A DNA stretch of 62,103 nucleotides from Opitutaceae bacterium (GTDB lineage Bacteria > Verrucomicrobiota > Verrucomicrobiia > Opitutales > Opitutaceae): contig JANJTQ010000010.1 of NCBI GenBank assembly GCA_024711005.1, positions 1 to 62,103 on the forward strand, given 5' to 3'. The position numbers and the translations under genes were made by a program. Positions 30,192-36,989 of this stretch are shown one piece after another. The notes under the pieces are model-generated. The model was not told the origin of the DNA, made no database searches, and worked only from the letters and a program-made list of their open reading frames with translations. Position 1 is the stretch's first letter. Every line of letters starts with the position of its first letter.

Positions 30192-31364
30192 ATGGAAGTC
30201 ATTTCAGTTCCGTCCCCGCGTTTTAAGCATCAGCAAGTCGAGGCGGAGATTCGTCAGTTGGTGGAAACGTTGCCGATCGCGGGGCGGTTGCCCTCGGAGC
30301 GCCGGCTGGCGGAGCTTTACGGGTGCAATTTCCTGACGGTGCGTCGCGCGTTGAAAGAGCTCGTCGACGATGGCACGGTCATGCGTCGGATCGGGAGCGG
30401 GACGTTTGTGGCGCGGCACGCGCGGAGTGTGCCGGCGGCGACCGCCCGGCCGCGGATCGGGGTGCTCGTGTGGCAGGGGGGCGACGCGTATGCCAATCGG
30501 GTGTTGCAGGGGCTCGCCTATGAGGCGGTGAACAACGACCTGGATCTGCGCTCAAGTTGGGTGCGCGACTTCATGGACGACGGACTCGAGCAGGCGAAGT
30601 TGCTGGAGCAGGAAGGTTGCGTGGCGATCACCCTGCCTTGGTTTCCGCATGATCGGATCGACGAGGTGCGCACGTTTGTGCGCAGTTGCACCTTGCCGGT
30701 GAGCCTCCCGATGGTGATTCCCGGGTTGGAGGCGAACAGCTTCGAGCAGCAGGAGGTGTTCGGCACCAACTTGCAGGCGTCGGCCGAGCACTTGTGCGGA
30801 TATTTTTATGCGCTCGGCCACCGTCGGATCGCCTTGCTCGGGCCGGATGCTCCGGGCGATGTGGTGTTAAATCGTTTTTTGAGCGCCTACGCCTGCTACA
30901 CCTCGCGGGCGAACCTCCCGAATCATTGCGGCTTGGTCGGGCCGGGAGCGCAGGCGATGAACCAACTGGCGGAGCGTTGGGCGACGTATCGCGGCGACCT
31001 GGCGGTGATCAGCTACGACGACGAGCACGCGCTTCGTTTCATGACGGCGATGCACAAGCTGGGGCTGAGTGCGCCGGACGATTTTCAGATCGGCGGCTAC
31101 AACAACACCGAGGCCAGCGCCTACAGCGACCCGCCGCTGACGACCATTCAGCAGAACTTCAACTACGTCGGGCACTGGCTCATCAAGAGCGCGCTCGCGT
31201 TGGCGCGCGGCGAGATCGACCAATCCACCTCGTTGCCCCGGCCGCAGATGTTGGTTCGCGCTTCCTGTGGCGGAGCGGGACGGATCGACGAGGCGTTTCG
31301 TCAACAACTGCCCAATCTCGACATCATCGTGGAGGATCCTTCCGGGGATCCGATGCCGGGCTGA
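30192..31364 (+). CDS. GntR/LacI chimeric transcriptional regulator (AraR-like layout)
   Basis: This regulator of 390 residues has an N-terminal winged helix of the GntR type (about residues 10-75, with GRLPSERRLAELYGCNFLTV and the wing GSGTFVARH) joined to a LacI/GalR-type periplasmic-binding-like sensor (from IGVLVWQGGDAYANR, with GHRRIALLGPDAPGD and DDFQIGGYNNTEAS). This arrangement is known from the arabinose regulator AraR, but the bound sugar here is unknown. It converges with the kinase gene of the mannosylfructose-type operon (35 bp between stops), which makes that operon a candidate target along with the gene's own promoter. Confidence 0.88.
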   Translation: MEVISVPSPRFKHQQVEAEIRQLVETLPIAGRLPSERRLAELYGCNFLTVRRALKELVDDGTVMRRIGSGTFVARHARSVPAATARPRIGVLVWQGGDAYANRVLQGLAYEAVNNDLDLRSSWVRDFMDDGLEQAKLLEQEGCVAITLPWFPHDRIDEVRTFVRSCTLPVSLPMVIPGLEANSFEQQEVFGTNLQASAEHLCGYFYALGHRRIALLGPDAPGDVVLNRFLSAYACYTSRANLPNHCGLVGPGAQAMNQLAERWATYRGDLAVISYDDEHALRFMTAMHKLGLSAPDDFQIGGYNNTEASAYSDPPLTTIQQNFNYVGHWLIKSALALARGEIDQSTSLPRPQMLVRASCGGAGRIDEAFRQQLPNLDIIVEDPSGDPMPG

Positions 31365-31399: not shown

Positions 31400-32293
31400 T
31401 CAGACCTTCGGGTAGGCTGGCGTGGCACCGCGTTGGGAGGCAACCCATTCGCCGGTGCGGCAGGCGCGCGCGAGGCTTTCGGCATCGGACGACTGGCCGC
31501 CGAGCAGATGAACGAGCAGTGCGGCGAGGAATGCATCGCCGGCGCCCACCGTATCGATCACGTCGACCGGGCGGCCCGGTTCCCATAGCCAGCGGCCTTC
31601 GCGGAGAAGGCCGGCGCCACGGGCACCCGCGGTGACGCAGATGATCGGGCAGCCGGTGGTGTTGGCGAGAGCCCGGGCGTGGGCCTCCTCCTCGCCGGGC
31701 TTCTCGGAGGATTCTCCGCGGAGGCGGGCGGCTTCCTCGGCGTTGAGTTTGAGCATCGTGGCGCGCGGGGCGAGGGCGCGCACGAGTTCGAGATCGTCGT
31801 GCGGGGCGCGCAGGTTGACATCGAAGACGCGCCAGGCCTGGTCGCGTTCGGGCAGCACGGCGAAGAGGCGGTTGAGGACGGTGCGGTTGAAGGGGGAGCG
31901 TTGGGCGAGCGAGCCGAAGACAAGGGCCCGCGCGCCCTGGGCGGCGCGGGTGACGTCCTCGTTCATGAAGATCTGATCCCAGGCGACGCTCGGGGTGATC
32001 TCGTAGCGGGCGTCGCCGCTTTCGCCGAGGATGGCCCGCACGTAGCCCGTGGGCAGGCCGCTGTGGCGGGTGATGAGGTCGGTATCCATATCCCAACTAC
32101 GGAGCCGGCGGAGAAGTTCCTCGCCGAGGAGATCGCGGCCGACGGCCGACACCAGCCGGGCGTCGGCGCCGTGTTGTTTGAGATGATAGGCGACGTTGAA
32201 GGGGGCGCCGCCGGCAAAAAGGCCCTCGGGAAGGAAGTCCCAGAGGATTTCGCCAAAGCAGAGGACGCGGGGAGGGGAGTCGGAAGGGGGCAT
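31400..32293 (-). CDS. PfkB family carbohydrate kinase, fructokinase-like
   Basis: This sugar kinase of about 297 residues transfers phosphate from ATP. The N-terminal substrate region VLCFGEILWDFLPEG and GGAPFNVAYHLKQHGADARL is that of the fructokinase branch of the PfkB/ribokinase family. The C-terminal signature DTVGAGDAFLAALL carries the catalytic Asp. I chose the ATG at 32293 because the longer frame enters hairpin copy 6. It is the last gene of the operon with the mannosylfructose-type synthase and phosphatase, so it most likely phosphorylates fructose to fructose 6-phosphate, the acceptor of the synthase (inference). Confidence 0.9.
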   Translation of the reverse strand: MPPSDSPPRVLCFGEILWDFLPEGLFAGGAPFNVAYHLKQHGADARLVSAVGRDLLGEELLRRLRSWDMDTDLITRHSGLPTGYVRAILGESGDARYEITPSVAWDQIFMNEDVTRAAQGARALVFGSLAQRSPFNRTVLNRLFAVLPERDQAWRVFDVNLRAPHDDLELVRALAPRATMLKLNAEEAARLRGESSEKPGEEEAHARALANTTGCPIICVTAGARGAGLLREGRWLWEPGRPVDVIDTVGAGDAFLAALLVHLLGGQSSDAESLARACRTGEWVASQRGATPAYPKV

Positions 32294-32302
32294 GGTTTTA
32301 AT

Positions 32303-32384
32303 CGTTCTCTTACTCGTTCTCCTCACCGTCCGATCCGGCGAACCCGAGAACGAGGAAGAGAACGAGAAAGAGAACGAGTAACGA
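32303..32384 (-). repeat. Stop-proximal pyrimidine/purine hairpin, copy 6
   Basis: TCGTTCTCTTACTCGTTCTC and a purine arm with GAACGAGAAAGAGAACGAGT lie between the phosphatase-glycosidase gene and the kinase gene. The element starts 11 bp behind the upstream stop and ends about 9 bp before the kinase ATG. As with copy 3, one arm falls where the ribosome binding site of the next gene should be. Confidence 0.75.
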
Positions 32385-32395
32385 GGATGTGGTTT

Positions 32396-34486
32396 TCAGT
32401 CTGCGAGGTGGGCCGGGTCGACCTCGACCTCCTGGCAGGCACGGATGAAGCAGGCGGCGGACCAGGCCTGGAAGGCCTTGCCCATGGGGCGGCCGGTCTG
32501 GCCGTGGGCCCATTCGTTGAACTCCCATTCCTGGTCGCGGCCGAGCTGGTTGAGTTTGGCGAGGCGCACGAGTTCGCGGCAGGCGACCTCGTGGAAGCCG
32601 AGACGGTGGATGAAGCGCACCCACATCGCGCCGATGAACGGCCAGATGCCGCCGTTGTGGTAGTGATGCGGGAGGTTGAGGAGATTGACCGTGTAATAGG
32701 CCCGCCAGTCGGGATCGCCGGCCTGCACGACGGGGTAGAGATTGGCGCCGGGCCACGGCTCGTTGACGCCGGCGCCCCACATGAAACGAAACGCGACGCG
32801 GGCGCGGTCGGCGTCGAGCAGGTTCATCAGGTAGGCGAGGATGTTGCCGTAGACATCGCAGCGCCAGTTGAAGGCGAAGGGCGTGATCTCGGCGATGAGG
32901 TACTGGGCGTCGCCAAGACCGAACTGGCGGTCGGCGAAACGATTGGGGCGCTTGTCGTCGGGCGAGGGTTGCGTGCTCGGCCAGAAAAGATCGAGCACAC
33001 GGCCCCGGATGTTCTGCGACCAGCGCAGATAGTCGGCGGCGCGCTCGAAATCGCCCATGAACTCGAGGAGGCGCCCGAAGCAGACATTGGCGCGATACCA
33101 AAGGACCTCGTCGTAGAGCACGTTGTAGCTGCGCCCGAAGAGATCCGTCCAGTCACCGGCCTCGGGAATCTCAAGGAGCCCGTCGTTGTTGCTGTCGTGG
33201 GCGCTGAGCCAGTCCATCGCGCGTTGGAGCCGGTCGGCGTTCCGACGAAGGAAATCGAGGTCTCCGGTCGTGGTGGTGAAATTATAGAATGCGATGATCA
33301 CCCATAGGCCGCTGTCGATGGAACAGATGCTGCCGACGCCGGAGTAATCGGGCGAGCCCGTGTCGATATGAACATTGGCGGGCAGCTGGCCTGTCGGAGA
33401 TGCGGCGTTGAGCAGCGTCTCCAAGGTTTGTCGCTGGCAGGCCCGGATGTCGGGATCCTCGAGGTGCATCGTATTGATGATCGTGATCGCGCCATCGCGC
33501 GCCCAGACGCTGCGGTAGTTGGCGTCGGTGCCGGTGACACTGTTATCGTTGAGCGAGCAGGCGGAGAAGCCGAGGGGCGTGATGTTTTTGCGCAACGCGA
33601 CGATCGCCTTCTCGTAGGCGAGCTTGAGGAAGTCCTTCTCCAGGGAGTCGAGGGCGCCCAGGCGCGTGCCGGTGAACAGTCGGCGGAACCCGGGCGTGGT
33701 CTCGTGGCCAGGGTGCGGAGTGGTCTGTACGGAGGGGATTTCGGTGATCACGCCGTAATGGAGCAACCCGTCGAGCACGCCGTCGGCCATCACCAGGCGC
33801 GAGCAGTAGAACTGCCGGTCGACTGTGGCTTCGAGCAGTTCGGGGAAGGCGTTTTCAACGATGATGCCTTTGACGCCGGGCAGCAGGAACATGCTGCTGT
33901 CGTTGCCGGTGTCGCCGGCGACCAGAACCTGTTCGAGGGGAATGCCGAGATGGTTGGCGAGCCATTGCAACGCCCCGCCCTTGCTCGCCCGGCGGGGAAG
34001 GACATCGAGGTCGCGATTACTTGAATACACGACGCAGGCATCGATGCCGGCCGACACGAGACGATGCTCAAGGTCGCGGAGGACCTCGGACGTGGCATTG
34101 TCGAGAAACCAGCTCGACTTGAACTTCTCTTGAAACTCATCCGGCTGTGGTTGAATGCCGGGTGTGGATGCGGTGATCTCATTGGCGCGCTCACGATTCC
34201 ATCCCTCCCCGATATAGGTGGCGAAGCCGTCCAGTTTCTTTTTTCCGCGAGCGTCGACGATTCGCGTGCCCACGCCGCCGATGTAGTAATCGGGCGAGAT
34301 CAGGCGGCCTTCGGCAACGAGGCGTTCCATGTCGGGAACGAGCCGCCCGCTATTATAGACGAGCAGAGGACGCAGGCTGGCGGGGAGAGACTTCCATGTG
34401 GTGAAGAAACGGCGCGCGGACTCGGGGTTGCCAAGCAGCGTGTTGTCGATGTCGCTGCAAAAAAGACGGATGTTGTCGTTGCTCAT
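32396..34486 (-). CDS. mfppB: Mannosylfructose-phosphate phosphatase fused to (alpha/alpha)6 glycosidase-like domain
   Basis: This protein of about 696 residues has two parts. Residues 1-245 form a HAD-type sugar phosphatase related to sucrose-phosphate and mannosylfructose-phosphate phosphatases. It has nucleophile Asp in CSDIDNTLLGN (residues 12/14), NSGRL, KGGALQWL and GDTGNDSSMF, and the segment DYYIGGVGTRIVDA. Residues about 280-690 form a barrel domain resembling GH100/amylo-alpha-1,6-glucosidase-like enzymes (YRSVWARDGAITIINTMHLE, GDWTDLFGRSYNVLYDEVLW, EWEFNEWAHGQTGRPMGK). Known MfppB proteins are about 250 residues long, so the second domain is unusual. The start at 34486 matches the family; a frame-extending ATG at 34564 overlaps mfpsA. 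No signal peptide, so it is cytoplasmic. Confidence 0.85.
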   Translation of the reverse strand: MSNDNIRLFCSDIDNTLLGNPESARRFFTTWKSLPASLRPLLVYNSGRLVPDMERLVAEGRLISPDYYIGGVGTRIVDARGKKKLDGFATYIGEGWNRERANEITASTPGIQPQPDEFQEKFKSSWFLDNATSEVLRDLEHRLVSAGIDACVVYSSNRDLDVLPRRASKGGALQWLANHLGIPLEQVLVAGDTGNDSSMFLLPGVKGIIVENAFPELLEATVDRQFYCSRLVMADGVLDGLLHYGVITEIPSVQTTPHPGHETTPGFRRLFTGTRLGALDSLEKDFLKLAYEKAIVALRKNITPLGFSACSLNDNSVTGTDANYRSVWARDGAITIINTMHLEDPDIRACQRQTLETLLNAASPTGQLPANVHIDTGSPDYSGVGSICSIDSGLWVIIAFYNFTTTTGDLDFLRRNADRLQRAMDWLSAHDSNNDGLLEIPEAGDWTDLFGRSYNVLYDEVLWYRANVCFGRLLEFMGDFERAADYLRWSQNIRGRVLDLFWPSTQPSPDDKRPNRFADRQFGLGDAQYLIAEITPFAFNWRCDVYGNILAYLMNLLDADRARVAFRFMWGAGVNEPWPGANLYPVVQAGDPDWRAYYTVNLLNLPHHYHNGGIWPFIGAMWVRFIHRLGFHEVACRELVRLAKLNQLGRDQEWEFNEWAHGQTGRPMGKAFQAWSAACFIRACQEVEVDPAHLAD

Positions 34487-34553
34487 GGGGGACTGGGGAG
34501 AGGTGAATAGGGAGTCGGATAGGTCGGATGGGTTCCATGGGTCGCCAAGACCC

Positions 34554-35891
34554 TCAGTCGCCATCGTTCCACGGCTCGTCCCATTCGGTGTCGCTCAGCG
34601 CCTTCTGCATGGGACGCCCTTCGACGAAGCTGATGAGCTGCTGCGCGATGCCGGTCCAGGTGAAGAGACTGCGGGCTTTGTGCGCACCCATGCGCGAGAG
34701 GCGGTTCCAGACTTTTTTATGTTTGAACGGCTTCAACATCATGATGCCAAGATCGGCTTTGTCGAACGGGTCGCCAAAGAGCGCGTGCCGGCCGAACGTA
34801 ACGGCGCGGTAGAGGCCGCCGTGGATCGTGACGACCGTGGGCGTGCCGCAAGCCATCGCCTCGATCGCGGTCATGCCGAACGGTTCGTAGCGACTGCTCA
34901 ACACGAACAAATCGGCCGCGCGATAATAGTCGGCGAGGTCTTCGTTTGCGACGAACCCGGCGAACTTGACGCGCTTTCCCAGATCGAGCTTCTTCACGCG
35001 TTTTTTTAGATCGGCGAGGATGTGTTTTTCCTGTGCGTCCATTTTTTCGCCCCCCACCGCGAGGTGGAGCACGATGTCGGGATCGCGTTTGGCGACGACG
35101 GAAAAGGCTTCAATCAGAAGATCGTAGCCTTTGTTGGTCGCGAGACGTCCCAAGGCGAGGATGGTGGGCTGCTTGAATCCGAGGCGGCGGCGAATCATCT
35201 GACGCGACGCCTCGCTCACCGGGAAGAACCGGTTGTCGTCGTATCCCGGTGGGATCATGTGAACGTGATCGGCGGGCACGCCGTATTCGCTAATGATCAG
35301 GTCGAGCTGGGGAGGGGTCGTTGCCACAACGAGATCGCAGGTGCGATAGATGATCGTCTCGTGTTTGATGCGCTCGGTGAAGTTGAACTCTTTTTCGAAC
35401 GACGCGGCGCGCTCCGGATAGTCCGTTTCCATCTGCTGCTTCTTCCAAATCCCCAGCGAATGGGGCGTGTGGACGTGCGGGATGGCGAGCGCCTCGGCCA
35501 GACGAAGGCCGGCGACACCGGCATCCCAATAATGGCTGTTGATGAACTGGTAGGTGAGGCCGTGGCGCTTGATGAAGCGCAGGGCGTTCTCCGACCATTC
35601 CATGAGGTCGCGATGAAGGTATTCCTTGGAGATGAACGCATCGCCGCCGCAGCGGGCGCGGATCACGCGCACGCGTGAATTCACGATGTCGATTTCCGGC
35701 TGCTTTTCGAAGCGGCGGGTCCAGATGTCGACCTCGTAGCCGAGTTGAGCGAGTTTTTTCGCGAGCTCGAGAACGTAGACGACCTGGCCTCCGGTATCCG
35801 CTTCGCCCAAGGGTGGATTGGCGGCGACATAACCATGGGTCGAAACCATGGCGATGCGCGGCCGTTTCTTGTCAGTATGTAACGTGGCCAT
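34554..35891 (-). CDS. mfpsA: Mannosylfructose-phosphate synthase (GT4)
   Basis: This glycosyltransferase of about 445 residues is in the sucrose-phosphate-synthase branch of GT4. It is expected to join mannose from GDP-mannose to fructose 6-phosphate. The N-terminal acceptor loop LGEADTGGQVVYVLELAKKL, the middle FINSHYWDAGVAGLRLAEAL and PHVHTPHSLGIWKKQQMETD, and the donor motif SSRYEPFGMTAIEAMACGTP closely recall Agrobacterium MfpsA, as does the end EPWNDGD (recognised from memory). Ordinary sucrose-phosphate synthase is the main alternative. The start is the ATG at 35891; one at 35912 would add seven residues. It is the first gene of the operon. Confidence 0.87.
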   Translation of the reverse strand: MATLHTDKKRPRIAMVSTHGYVAANPPLGEADTGGQVVYVLELAKKLAQLGYEVDIWTRRFEKQPEIDIVNSRVRVIRARCGGDAFISKEYLHRDLMEWSENALRFIKRHGLTYQFINSHYWDAGVAGLRLAEALAIPHVHTPHSLGIWKKQQMETDYPERAASFEKEFNFTERIKHETIIYRTCDLVVATTPPQLDLIISEYGVPADHVHMIPPGYDDNRFFPVSEASRQMIRRRLGFKQPTILALGRLATNKGYDLLIEAFSVVAKRDPDIVLHLAVGGEKMDAQEKHILADLKKRVKKLDLGKRVKFAGFVANEDLADYYRAADLFVLSSRYEPFGMTAIEAMACGTPTVVTIHGGLYRAVTFGRHALFGDPFDKADLGIMMLKPFKHKKVWNRLSRMGAHKARSLFTWTGIAQQLISFVEGRPMQKALSDTEWDEPWNDGD

Positions 35892-35953
35892 GAGTCGATT
35901 TTTGGAACGCATCGACCAACGTGCAAGTCACGATGTCCGCTTTTTTGAAATTA

Positions 35954-35978
35954 ATCCGTTTGTAGGTGAATAACGGAT
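35954..35978. promoter_or_regulatory. Inverted repeat in the mfpsA promoter region
   Basis: ATCCGTT and AACGGAT form 7-bp arms separated by 11 bases, about 60 bp upstream of the mfpsA start. The surrounding 35930-35990 stretch is AT-rich for this genome, as expected for a promoter. It is a candidate operator for the operon; which regulator binds is unknown. Confidence 0.4.
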
Positions 35979-36116: not shown

Positions 36117-36989
36117 TTATTCCGAGGCGATGGCCAGGCGGAGAAGGTGACGCAGTCGTTGCGGGTCGGTGGCGGAGGTTTTGGCGACGAAGCCGCGGGC
36201 GTGGGCGAAGTGGACGTCGGGTTCGCCGGCGATGCGCGTGAAGTCGAGCCGCGCGCTGTCGCGATGGCGGGAGAGCCCGTAGCCGTCGCTGCGCCGGTCG
36301 GGCGAGATGAGCGCGATCACCCGGTTGCCCAGGCCCCGACTTTCGACGTAGCGTTCGAGCGCGGCGGACGGATCGTCGGGGAGCGGTTCGGTGCGCGGAA
36401 GAAAAAGCGCGCACGGCGCGCCGGCGACGTCGTCGAGCGTCCACAACTCCGCATGGCGCGCGATGAAGTCGAGCCGGTCGCGCAACGATCGCACGTAGGC
36501 GAGCAGGTCTTCGCCGATCATCCGCATGATCTCCCACAACGGCTCGCCGGGTGAGAGCTGCGCGGACTGCGCAAACCGGCGCAGGAGGGCGCCGTCGACG
36601 GGCGAGTTGAGTTTGCCGACGACACCGCGGTCGACTCCGAGCCAGCGCGCCGTATCCGAAGCGCCACGACAGTCGAACCACTCGGCGGGTTCGAGCCAGT
36701 CGCAGAAGGAGCGGGCGTCCTCGTAAAGCCCGAGGTGCCGGAGGACGAACGAGAGCGAGCAGGTGGGCGGGTGATCCGCAGGCAGTTGGTGGTGGTCGAA
36801 GTTGTTGAGTGCGGGCTCGTGCACATGGCCCACGTCCACCACGGCGACGGAGGCGTCGGCCAGGTCGGCAGGCTCCGGCTCGCGACGCACTATGGGCGCG
36901 GGGTGGACGGCGAGGAGCACGCTGCACGCGAGGAACTCGTCTTTGTGCGCACTGCCGGGGTGGGTGAGAATCGTGGTGAAAGGCGTCAT
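36117..36989 (-). CDS. MYG1 family protein (DHH-like phosphoesterase fold)
   Basis: This protein of 290 residues matches the MYG1/UPF0160 family, distant relatives of DHH phosphoesterases with reported 3'-5' RNA exonuclease activity in eukaryotic members. Metal-site candidates are the N-terminal THPGSAHKDEFLACSVL (His and Asp near residues 10-17), the Asp in VVDVGHVHEP, and FDHHQLPADHPPTCSLSFVL near 64-68. There is no signal peptide, so it is cytoplasmic. It is divergent from the zinc-ribbon membrane protein gene. Its cellular role in bacteria is unknown. Confidence 0.75.
   Translation of the reverse strand: MTPFTTILTHPGSAHKDEFLACSVLLAVHPAPIVRREPEPADLADASVAVVDVGHVHEPALNNFDHHQLPADHPPTCSLSFVLRHLGLYEDARSFCDWLEPAEWFDCRGASDTARWLGVDRGVVGKLNSPVDGALLRRFAQSAQLSPGEPLWEIMRMIGEDLLAYVRSLRDRLDFIARHAELWTLDDVAGAPCALFLPRTEPLPDDPSAALERYVESRGLGNRVIALISPDRRSDGYGLSRHRDSARLDFTRIAGEPDVHFAHARGFVAKTSATDPQRLRHLLRLAIASE

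Follow-up and report, generated by a model that had tools for sequence, protein, structure and literature searches.

Synthesis of mannosylfructose is known essentially from Agrobacterium, where the synthase MfpsA, in work that is said to go back to Torres and Salerno in 2007, reportedly uses GDP-mannose and fructose 6-phosphate to form mannosylfructose phosphate. The product, also called mannosucrose, is an osmoregulated solute accumulated by A. tumefaciens (PMC2918589). Genes for making and for degrading an osmolyte sugar occur together in the Synechococcus sucrose operon spsA-sppA-frkA-amsA, whose breakdown enzyme is regarded as keeping the osmolyte pool in balance (PMC11046441). Our literature search returned no description of mannosylfructose breakdown and, within the open-licence papers to which it was limited, none of a phosphatase fused to a GH100 domain.

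The window considered here is a stretch of 62,103 nucleotides from an Opitutaceae bacterium. On its minus strand, it carries an operon made up of a GT4 glycosyltransferase, a HAD phosphatase fused to a GH100-like glycosidase, and a PfkB sugar kinase (Table 1). The initial annotation had described this operon at the same place, had likened the GT4 to mannosylfructose-phosphate synthase and had recognized both the phosphatase and the GH100-like barrel attached to it; all of this is borne out by the profile, tree and structure comparisons presented below. Neither of the two outcomes that it had named as telling against its reading was observed, since the GT4 does not group with sucrose-phosphate synthases (SPS) and the C-terminal domain is not devoid of hydrolase residues.

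Table 1. Features of the mannosylfructose-type operon (positions in the window).
Feature	Position	Strand	Basis
GT4 glycosyltransferase, 452 aa, MfpsA orthologue by sequence	34554..35912	-	Pfam/NCBIfam, identity to Agrobacterium GT4s, tree
HAD phosphatase - GH100-like glycosidase fusion, 722 aa from first ATG	32396..34564	-	Pfam, structural matches, homologues
Phosphatase domain (S6PP / HAD-IIB) within fusion	33746..34486	-	Pfam, 1s2o match, motifs
(alpha/alpha)6 GH100-like glycosidase domain, ORF residues 307-722 of fusion	32399..33646	-	Pfam, structure matches
Codon of D474, predicted general acid (= InvA D188)	33143..33145	-	Alignment; 58/58 homologues
Codon of E684, predicted general base (= InvA E414)	32513..32515	-	Alignment; 58/58 homologues
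Fructokinase-like PfkB sugar kinase (probable start: ATG at 32293)	31400..32326	-	Pfam/NCBIfam; third gene in many fusion loci

With its first ATG as start, the fusion reading frame overlaps that of the GT4 by 11 bp. The 26 residues preceding ATG 34486 are not conserved, so that this codon is the likely start, giving a protein of 696 aa. The third reading frame matches PfkB with 1.1e-38 (Pfam/NCBIfam). A copy of a dispersed repeat sits between the fusion and PfkB genes, and the GTG start of the PfkB frame lies inside it; translation of the kinase probably begins at the ATG given in Table 1. This intergenic repeat consists of units of 12 nt (CTCGTTCTCTTW), which often form inverted pairs, and occurs in the window at 32298-32381, 8632, 17559/17627, and 27225; CTCGTTCTCNNNCTCGTTCTC has 53 exact matches genome-wide, and its reversed control has 0. 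Immediately upstream of the GT4 gene lies a MYG1/UPF0160-type gene (36117-36989, minus strand), whose position is kept in three close relatives (L025, L027, and L028).

In the fusion, the phosphatase half (residues 33-271) matches S6PP (PF05116, 3e-62) and resembles the Synechocystis sucrose phosphatase 1s2o both by profile (1.2e-29) and as a structural model (Z 27.1). HAD motifs I-IV are intact, with D38, D40, K195, D218, and D222 (ORF numbering) retained. Judged from these matches, this half belongs to the S6PP / HAD-IIB sugar phosphatases and, in the HAD tree, every fused phosphatase except one joins the rhizobial phosphatases (support 100/99). The fused frame is no assembly artefact, since the full-length fusion occurs in 14 of 55 relatives, at 57-86% identity and on contigs of independent genomes, and was met again in named genomes from other phyla. 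Comparisons within the genus give a dN/dS of about 0.14-0.34 for the HAD half and about 0.09-0.21 for the GH half, synonymous sites being near saturation in some pairs. Purifying selection is hence stronger on the GH half than on the phosphatase half.

The second half of the fusion (residues 351-709) matches Glyco_hydro_100 (1.6e-14; 53.9 bits vs. a curated cut-off of 23.6), and also GDE_C (6.8e-9) and MGH1-like (1.3e-8). Among its closest solved relatives are the Anabaena invertases InvA and InvB, with a sequence profile match of 8e-16 and Z values of 26-29, sucrose-bound structures included (up to 29.2 for the whole-protein model and 28.8 for the domain model). In the domain-model comparison, the “glycosidase” entries 5z3a-e are level with InvA, and a GH63 mannosylglycerate hydrolase follows with Z of about 25. 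In terms of function, neither Foldseek nor VIA comparisons distinguished GH100 relatives from those of GH63 or GH94. Identity to the characterized GH100 enzymes InvA and InvB is 16-19%, GH63 enzymes being nearly as close in fold; given this distance and the match to the GH63 mannosylglycerate hydrolase, the sugar that is cut cannot be read from the sequence. The catalytic residues of InvA are Asp188 and Glu414 (PMC6995568). They align with D474 and E684 of the fusion, and this pair is invariant in all 58 aligned homologues, including remote proteins from Deinococcus, Variovorax, and Acidithiobacillus. The structural models are of moderate confidence, with mean pLDDT values of 78 and 76, and fall partly below 50 in the loops that carry D474 and E684, so that the active-site geometry rests on the alignment. 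The invertase-like fold, the two invariant carboxylates and the low dN/dS indicate that the GH half is very probably an active inverting alpha-glycosidase.

The GT4 protein matches Glycos_transf_1 (2.7e-33) and Glyco_transf_4 (3.8e-28) in Pfam. It shares 72% identity with the GT4s of A. albertimagni (L105) and A. arsenijevicii (L117), congeners that were used for the comparison in place of the type enzyme Atu0661. Across the 18 rhizobial-type loci found in a scan of named genomes and neighbourhoods, two of which are these named Agrobacterium loci, identity to the window GT4 is 70-74% and a HAD phosphatase always follows directly after the GT4; in the two Agrobacterium loci the phosphatase is unfused, and the gene pair has the mfpsA-mfppB layout. 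The tree, built from 101 GT4 sequences, places the window protein, the Opitutaceae proteins and the rhizobial proteins in one group. Relatives assigned to the same family group with named Lacunisphaera and Opitutus sequences, in agreement with an Opitutaceae origin of the window, and the 27-row clade that contains the Agrobacterium-type proteins has a support of 100/100. A second group, at about 47% identity, comprises proteins from Flavobacteria, Akkermansiaceae, alphaproteobacteria, and Acidimicrobia. The SPS of two genuine sucrose clusters fall outside the GT4 groups with a support of 99-100%. This strongly supported separation and the 72% identity to the Agrobacterium proteins make the window GT4, by sequence, an orthologue of MfpsA. 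The possibility that it is an SPS was rejected on its tree position and on its score on the bacterial SPS model TIGR02472 (NCBIfam; cut-off 576 bits), which is 215 bits, level with the Agrobacterium protein (206) and far from genuine SPS (655-672). On both counts, the window GT4 falls short of the SPS that defines sucrose sps-spp-frk-ams clusters.

The gene order, the gene families, the GT4 orthology, the fold and catalytic residues of both halves, the purifying selection and the conservation of the locus are matters of observation. For the function of the operon, we regard as probable a cycle in which mannosylfructose is both made and unmade as an osmolyte, the fusion finishing and then hydrolysing the product. 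The GT4 would transfer the mannose of GDP-mannose onto fructose 6-phosphate; the same genome has a gene of the GDP-mannose pyrophosphorylase type. The HAD half of the fusion would then take the phosphate off mannosylfructose phosphate, yielding a non-reducing alpha-glycosyl beta-fructofuranoside, most likely mannosylfructose. Once this solute is no longer needed, the GH100-like half, acting as an inverting alpha-glycosidase, would hydrolyse it to mannose and fructose, and the PfkB kinase would convert the freed fructose back to fructose 6-phosphate. Synthesis under osmotic stress and hydrolysis on its relief would thus amount to mannosylfructose homeostasis, provided that the sugar serves as an osmolyte in the Opitutaceae host.

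The same genes could in principle run a sucrose cycle, with a GT4 using UDP- or ADP-glucose, sucrose as the product and an invertase as the GH half. The GH half is indeed closest to the GH100 sucrose invertases, the phosphatase half matches sucrose-phosphatase models, and a sucrose cluster with a separate GH100 and a PfkB exists in Acidithiobacillus. However, the SPS model scores the GT4 far below its cut-off and the tree places it with the Agrobacterium type, which makes sucrose an unlikely product.

The distribution of the genes bears on the nature of the substrate. Of 388 sampled Verrucomicrobiota genomes, 26 have the fusion. It extends to Bacteroidota, Chloroflexota, and KSB1, and its gene almost invariably adjoins a GT4 of this family. 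In 96 loci with such a GT4, the hydrolase is fused to HAD in 43, encoded by a separate GH100-like gene in 9 and of the GH32-like type in 22; the remaining 22 have no hydrolase gene in the stretch of DNA covered, and 18 of them are rhizobial. These counts mirror the sampling of the scan. Close relatives of the GH half (48-66%) are encoded next to GT4 and HAD, also where they are unfused or on the opposite strand. The GH32-like proteins, of about 514 aa, adjoin HAD and GT4 in alphaproteobacteria and others (L021, L041-L057, L064, L094, and L095). They have the invariant Asp, the RDP motif and the Glu as in the GH32 clan, with a weak Pfam match. On mannosylfructose or sucrose, a GH100-like enzyme would act from the aldose side, whereas the point of attack for a GH32-like one would be the fructose side. 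Fructose is freed in either case, which fits with PfkB being the third gene, not always adjacent, in many fusion loci.

It is also conceivable that the GH half cuts another alpha-glycoside, such as mannosylglycerate or an imported oligosaccharide, the fusion serving merely for co-expression or stability. Its additional matches to MGH1-like, GDE_C and the GH63 mannosylglycerate hydrolase would agree with this, as would single-domain relatives in Deinococcus, which sit in sugar-catabolic loci having neither GT4 nor HAD. Nevertheless, the close relatives keep their place next to this GT4 and HAD whether or not they are fused or share the strand, and a GH32-like gene is swapped in at the same place, which points to the pathway's own product as the substrate; we consider a foreign substrate improbable. 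That the GH half is a phosphorylase or transglycosidase passing the mannosyl group on, as the shared fold of GH94-type phosphorylases (Z about 26) might suggest, or else an inactive scaffold, is very unlikely, both carboxylates of an inverting hydrolase being kept in 58/58 sequences and the low dN/dS of the GH half arguing against inactivity. To our knowledge, (alpha/alpha)6 phosphorylases of GH65 and GH94 are devoid of the second catalytic carboxylate. A transferase activity of the GH half is speculation.

As to the origin of the fusion, all fused GH domains except one join together in the GH tree (97/94). With one exception each, the HAD and GH trees thus suggest a single principal fusion, whose product was afterwards combined with two different GT4 groups, as well as a separate fusion in one Anaerolineae genome (L097). 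The GH domain may also be lost. In the nearly closed Opitutaceae-type genome G017 (L038:4301-6741), the GT4 is 83% identical to that of the window and the HAD is nested among fused ones, and no GH domain was found anywhere in the genome, which makes this a natural, secondary loss. Since the rhizobial loci and G017 keep GT4 and HAD without GH, the hydrolase is dispensable. An origin of rhizobial mfpsA inside the verrucomicrobial clade, with later GH loss, was not told apart from a position beside that clade (p-AU 0.374). Another genome (G187) has three copies of the MfpsA-family GT4, one with a fused and one with an unfused phosphatase.

If mannosylfructose is made and broken by one polypeptide, a futile cycle would result unless the two activities are regulated. 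No regulatory device preventing it was found. A GntR/LacI-type gene (30192..31364, plus strand) was considered as a regulator of the operon and discarded, being absent from the relatives' loci and convergent to the operon. The fusion might itself be a two-way switch enzyme with a logic like that of PFK-2/FBPase-2, completing mannosylfructose in one state and destroying it in the other, its active sites being regulated oppositely by osmotic or metabolic signals, an idea that we view as doubtful. A link to mannose supply, which the initial annotation had suggested from the setting among alpha-mannosidases, finds no support: GH92 is about 14 kb and GH38 about 27-30 kb away, outside the operon, and neither was seen in the relatives' loci.

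As far as we have found, a phosphatase joined to an invertase-like domain in a mannosylfructose-type pathway is a new arrangement, present in several phyla. Synthesis-completing and degrading active sites on one polypeptide are unusual, and the locus names a candidate hydrolase for mannosylfructose. The gene set of the pathway extends well beyond Rhizobiaceae, to Verrucomicrobiota, Bacteroidota, Chloroflexota, Actinomycetota, and KSB1. Its natural variants, with the hydrolase fused, split, replaced by a GH32-like protein or lost, make the balance between osmolyte making and removal directly testable.

Compared with known systems, the locus is closest to mfpsA-mfppB of Agrobacterium: the two GT4s are about 72% identical, and in both cases the next gene encodes a HAD phosphatase, the phosphatases belonging to one clade. 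However, the rhizobial phosphatase is unfused and has no adjoining GH or PfkB, whereas in the window the phosphatase is fused and a PfkB accompanies it. The initial supposition that the enzyme trio is that of Agrobacterium finds no support, as neither a PfkB nor a GH gene was seen within 5 kb of the gene pair in A. albertimagni and A. arsenijevicii. Like the sucrose operons (spsA-sppA-frkA-amsA; Acidithiobacillus L121), the window combines a synthase, a phosphatase, a fructokinase and a breakdown enzyme. The sucrose operons differ by their true SPS, often fused to the sucrose-phosphate phosphatase (SPP), and by the use of a separate amylosucrase or a true GH100 invertase. The Acidithiobacillus plasmid p6 (10.8 kb) carries a compact sucrose cluster with an MFS transporter, a PfkB, a GH100 invertase and a bifunctional SPS/SPP. 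Another sucrose cluster (L039, in G038) has a window-like order of PfkB, SPS-SPP fusion, amylosucrase-like GH13 and a second HAD. With the Anabaena GH100 alkaline/neutral invertases InvA and InvB, the GH half has in common the (alpha/alpha)6 fold and the catalytic Asp/Glu pair; it departs from them by its low identity, its fusion to a phosphatase and the absence of the three-residue insert of InvB that carries an extra conserved Arg. Finally, single-domain “glycoside hydrolase 100 family” proteins encoded on Deinococcus plasmids are 35-37% identical to the GH half and share its WARD, DWADL, and FNEW motifs, but they have no phosphatase domain and no GT4 nearby, and their gene neighbourhoods are catabolic.
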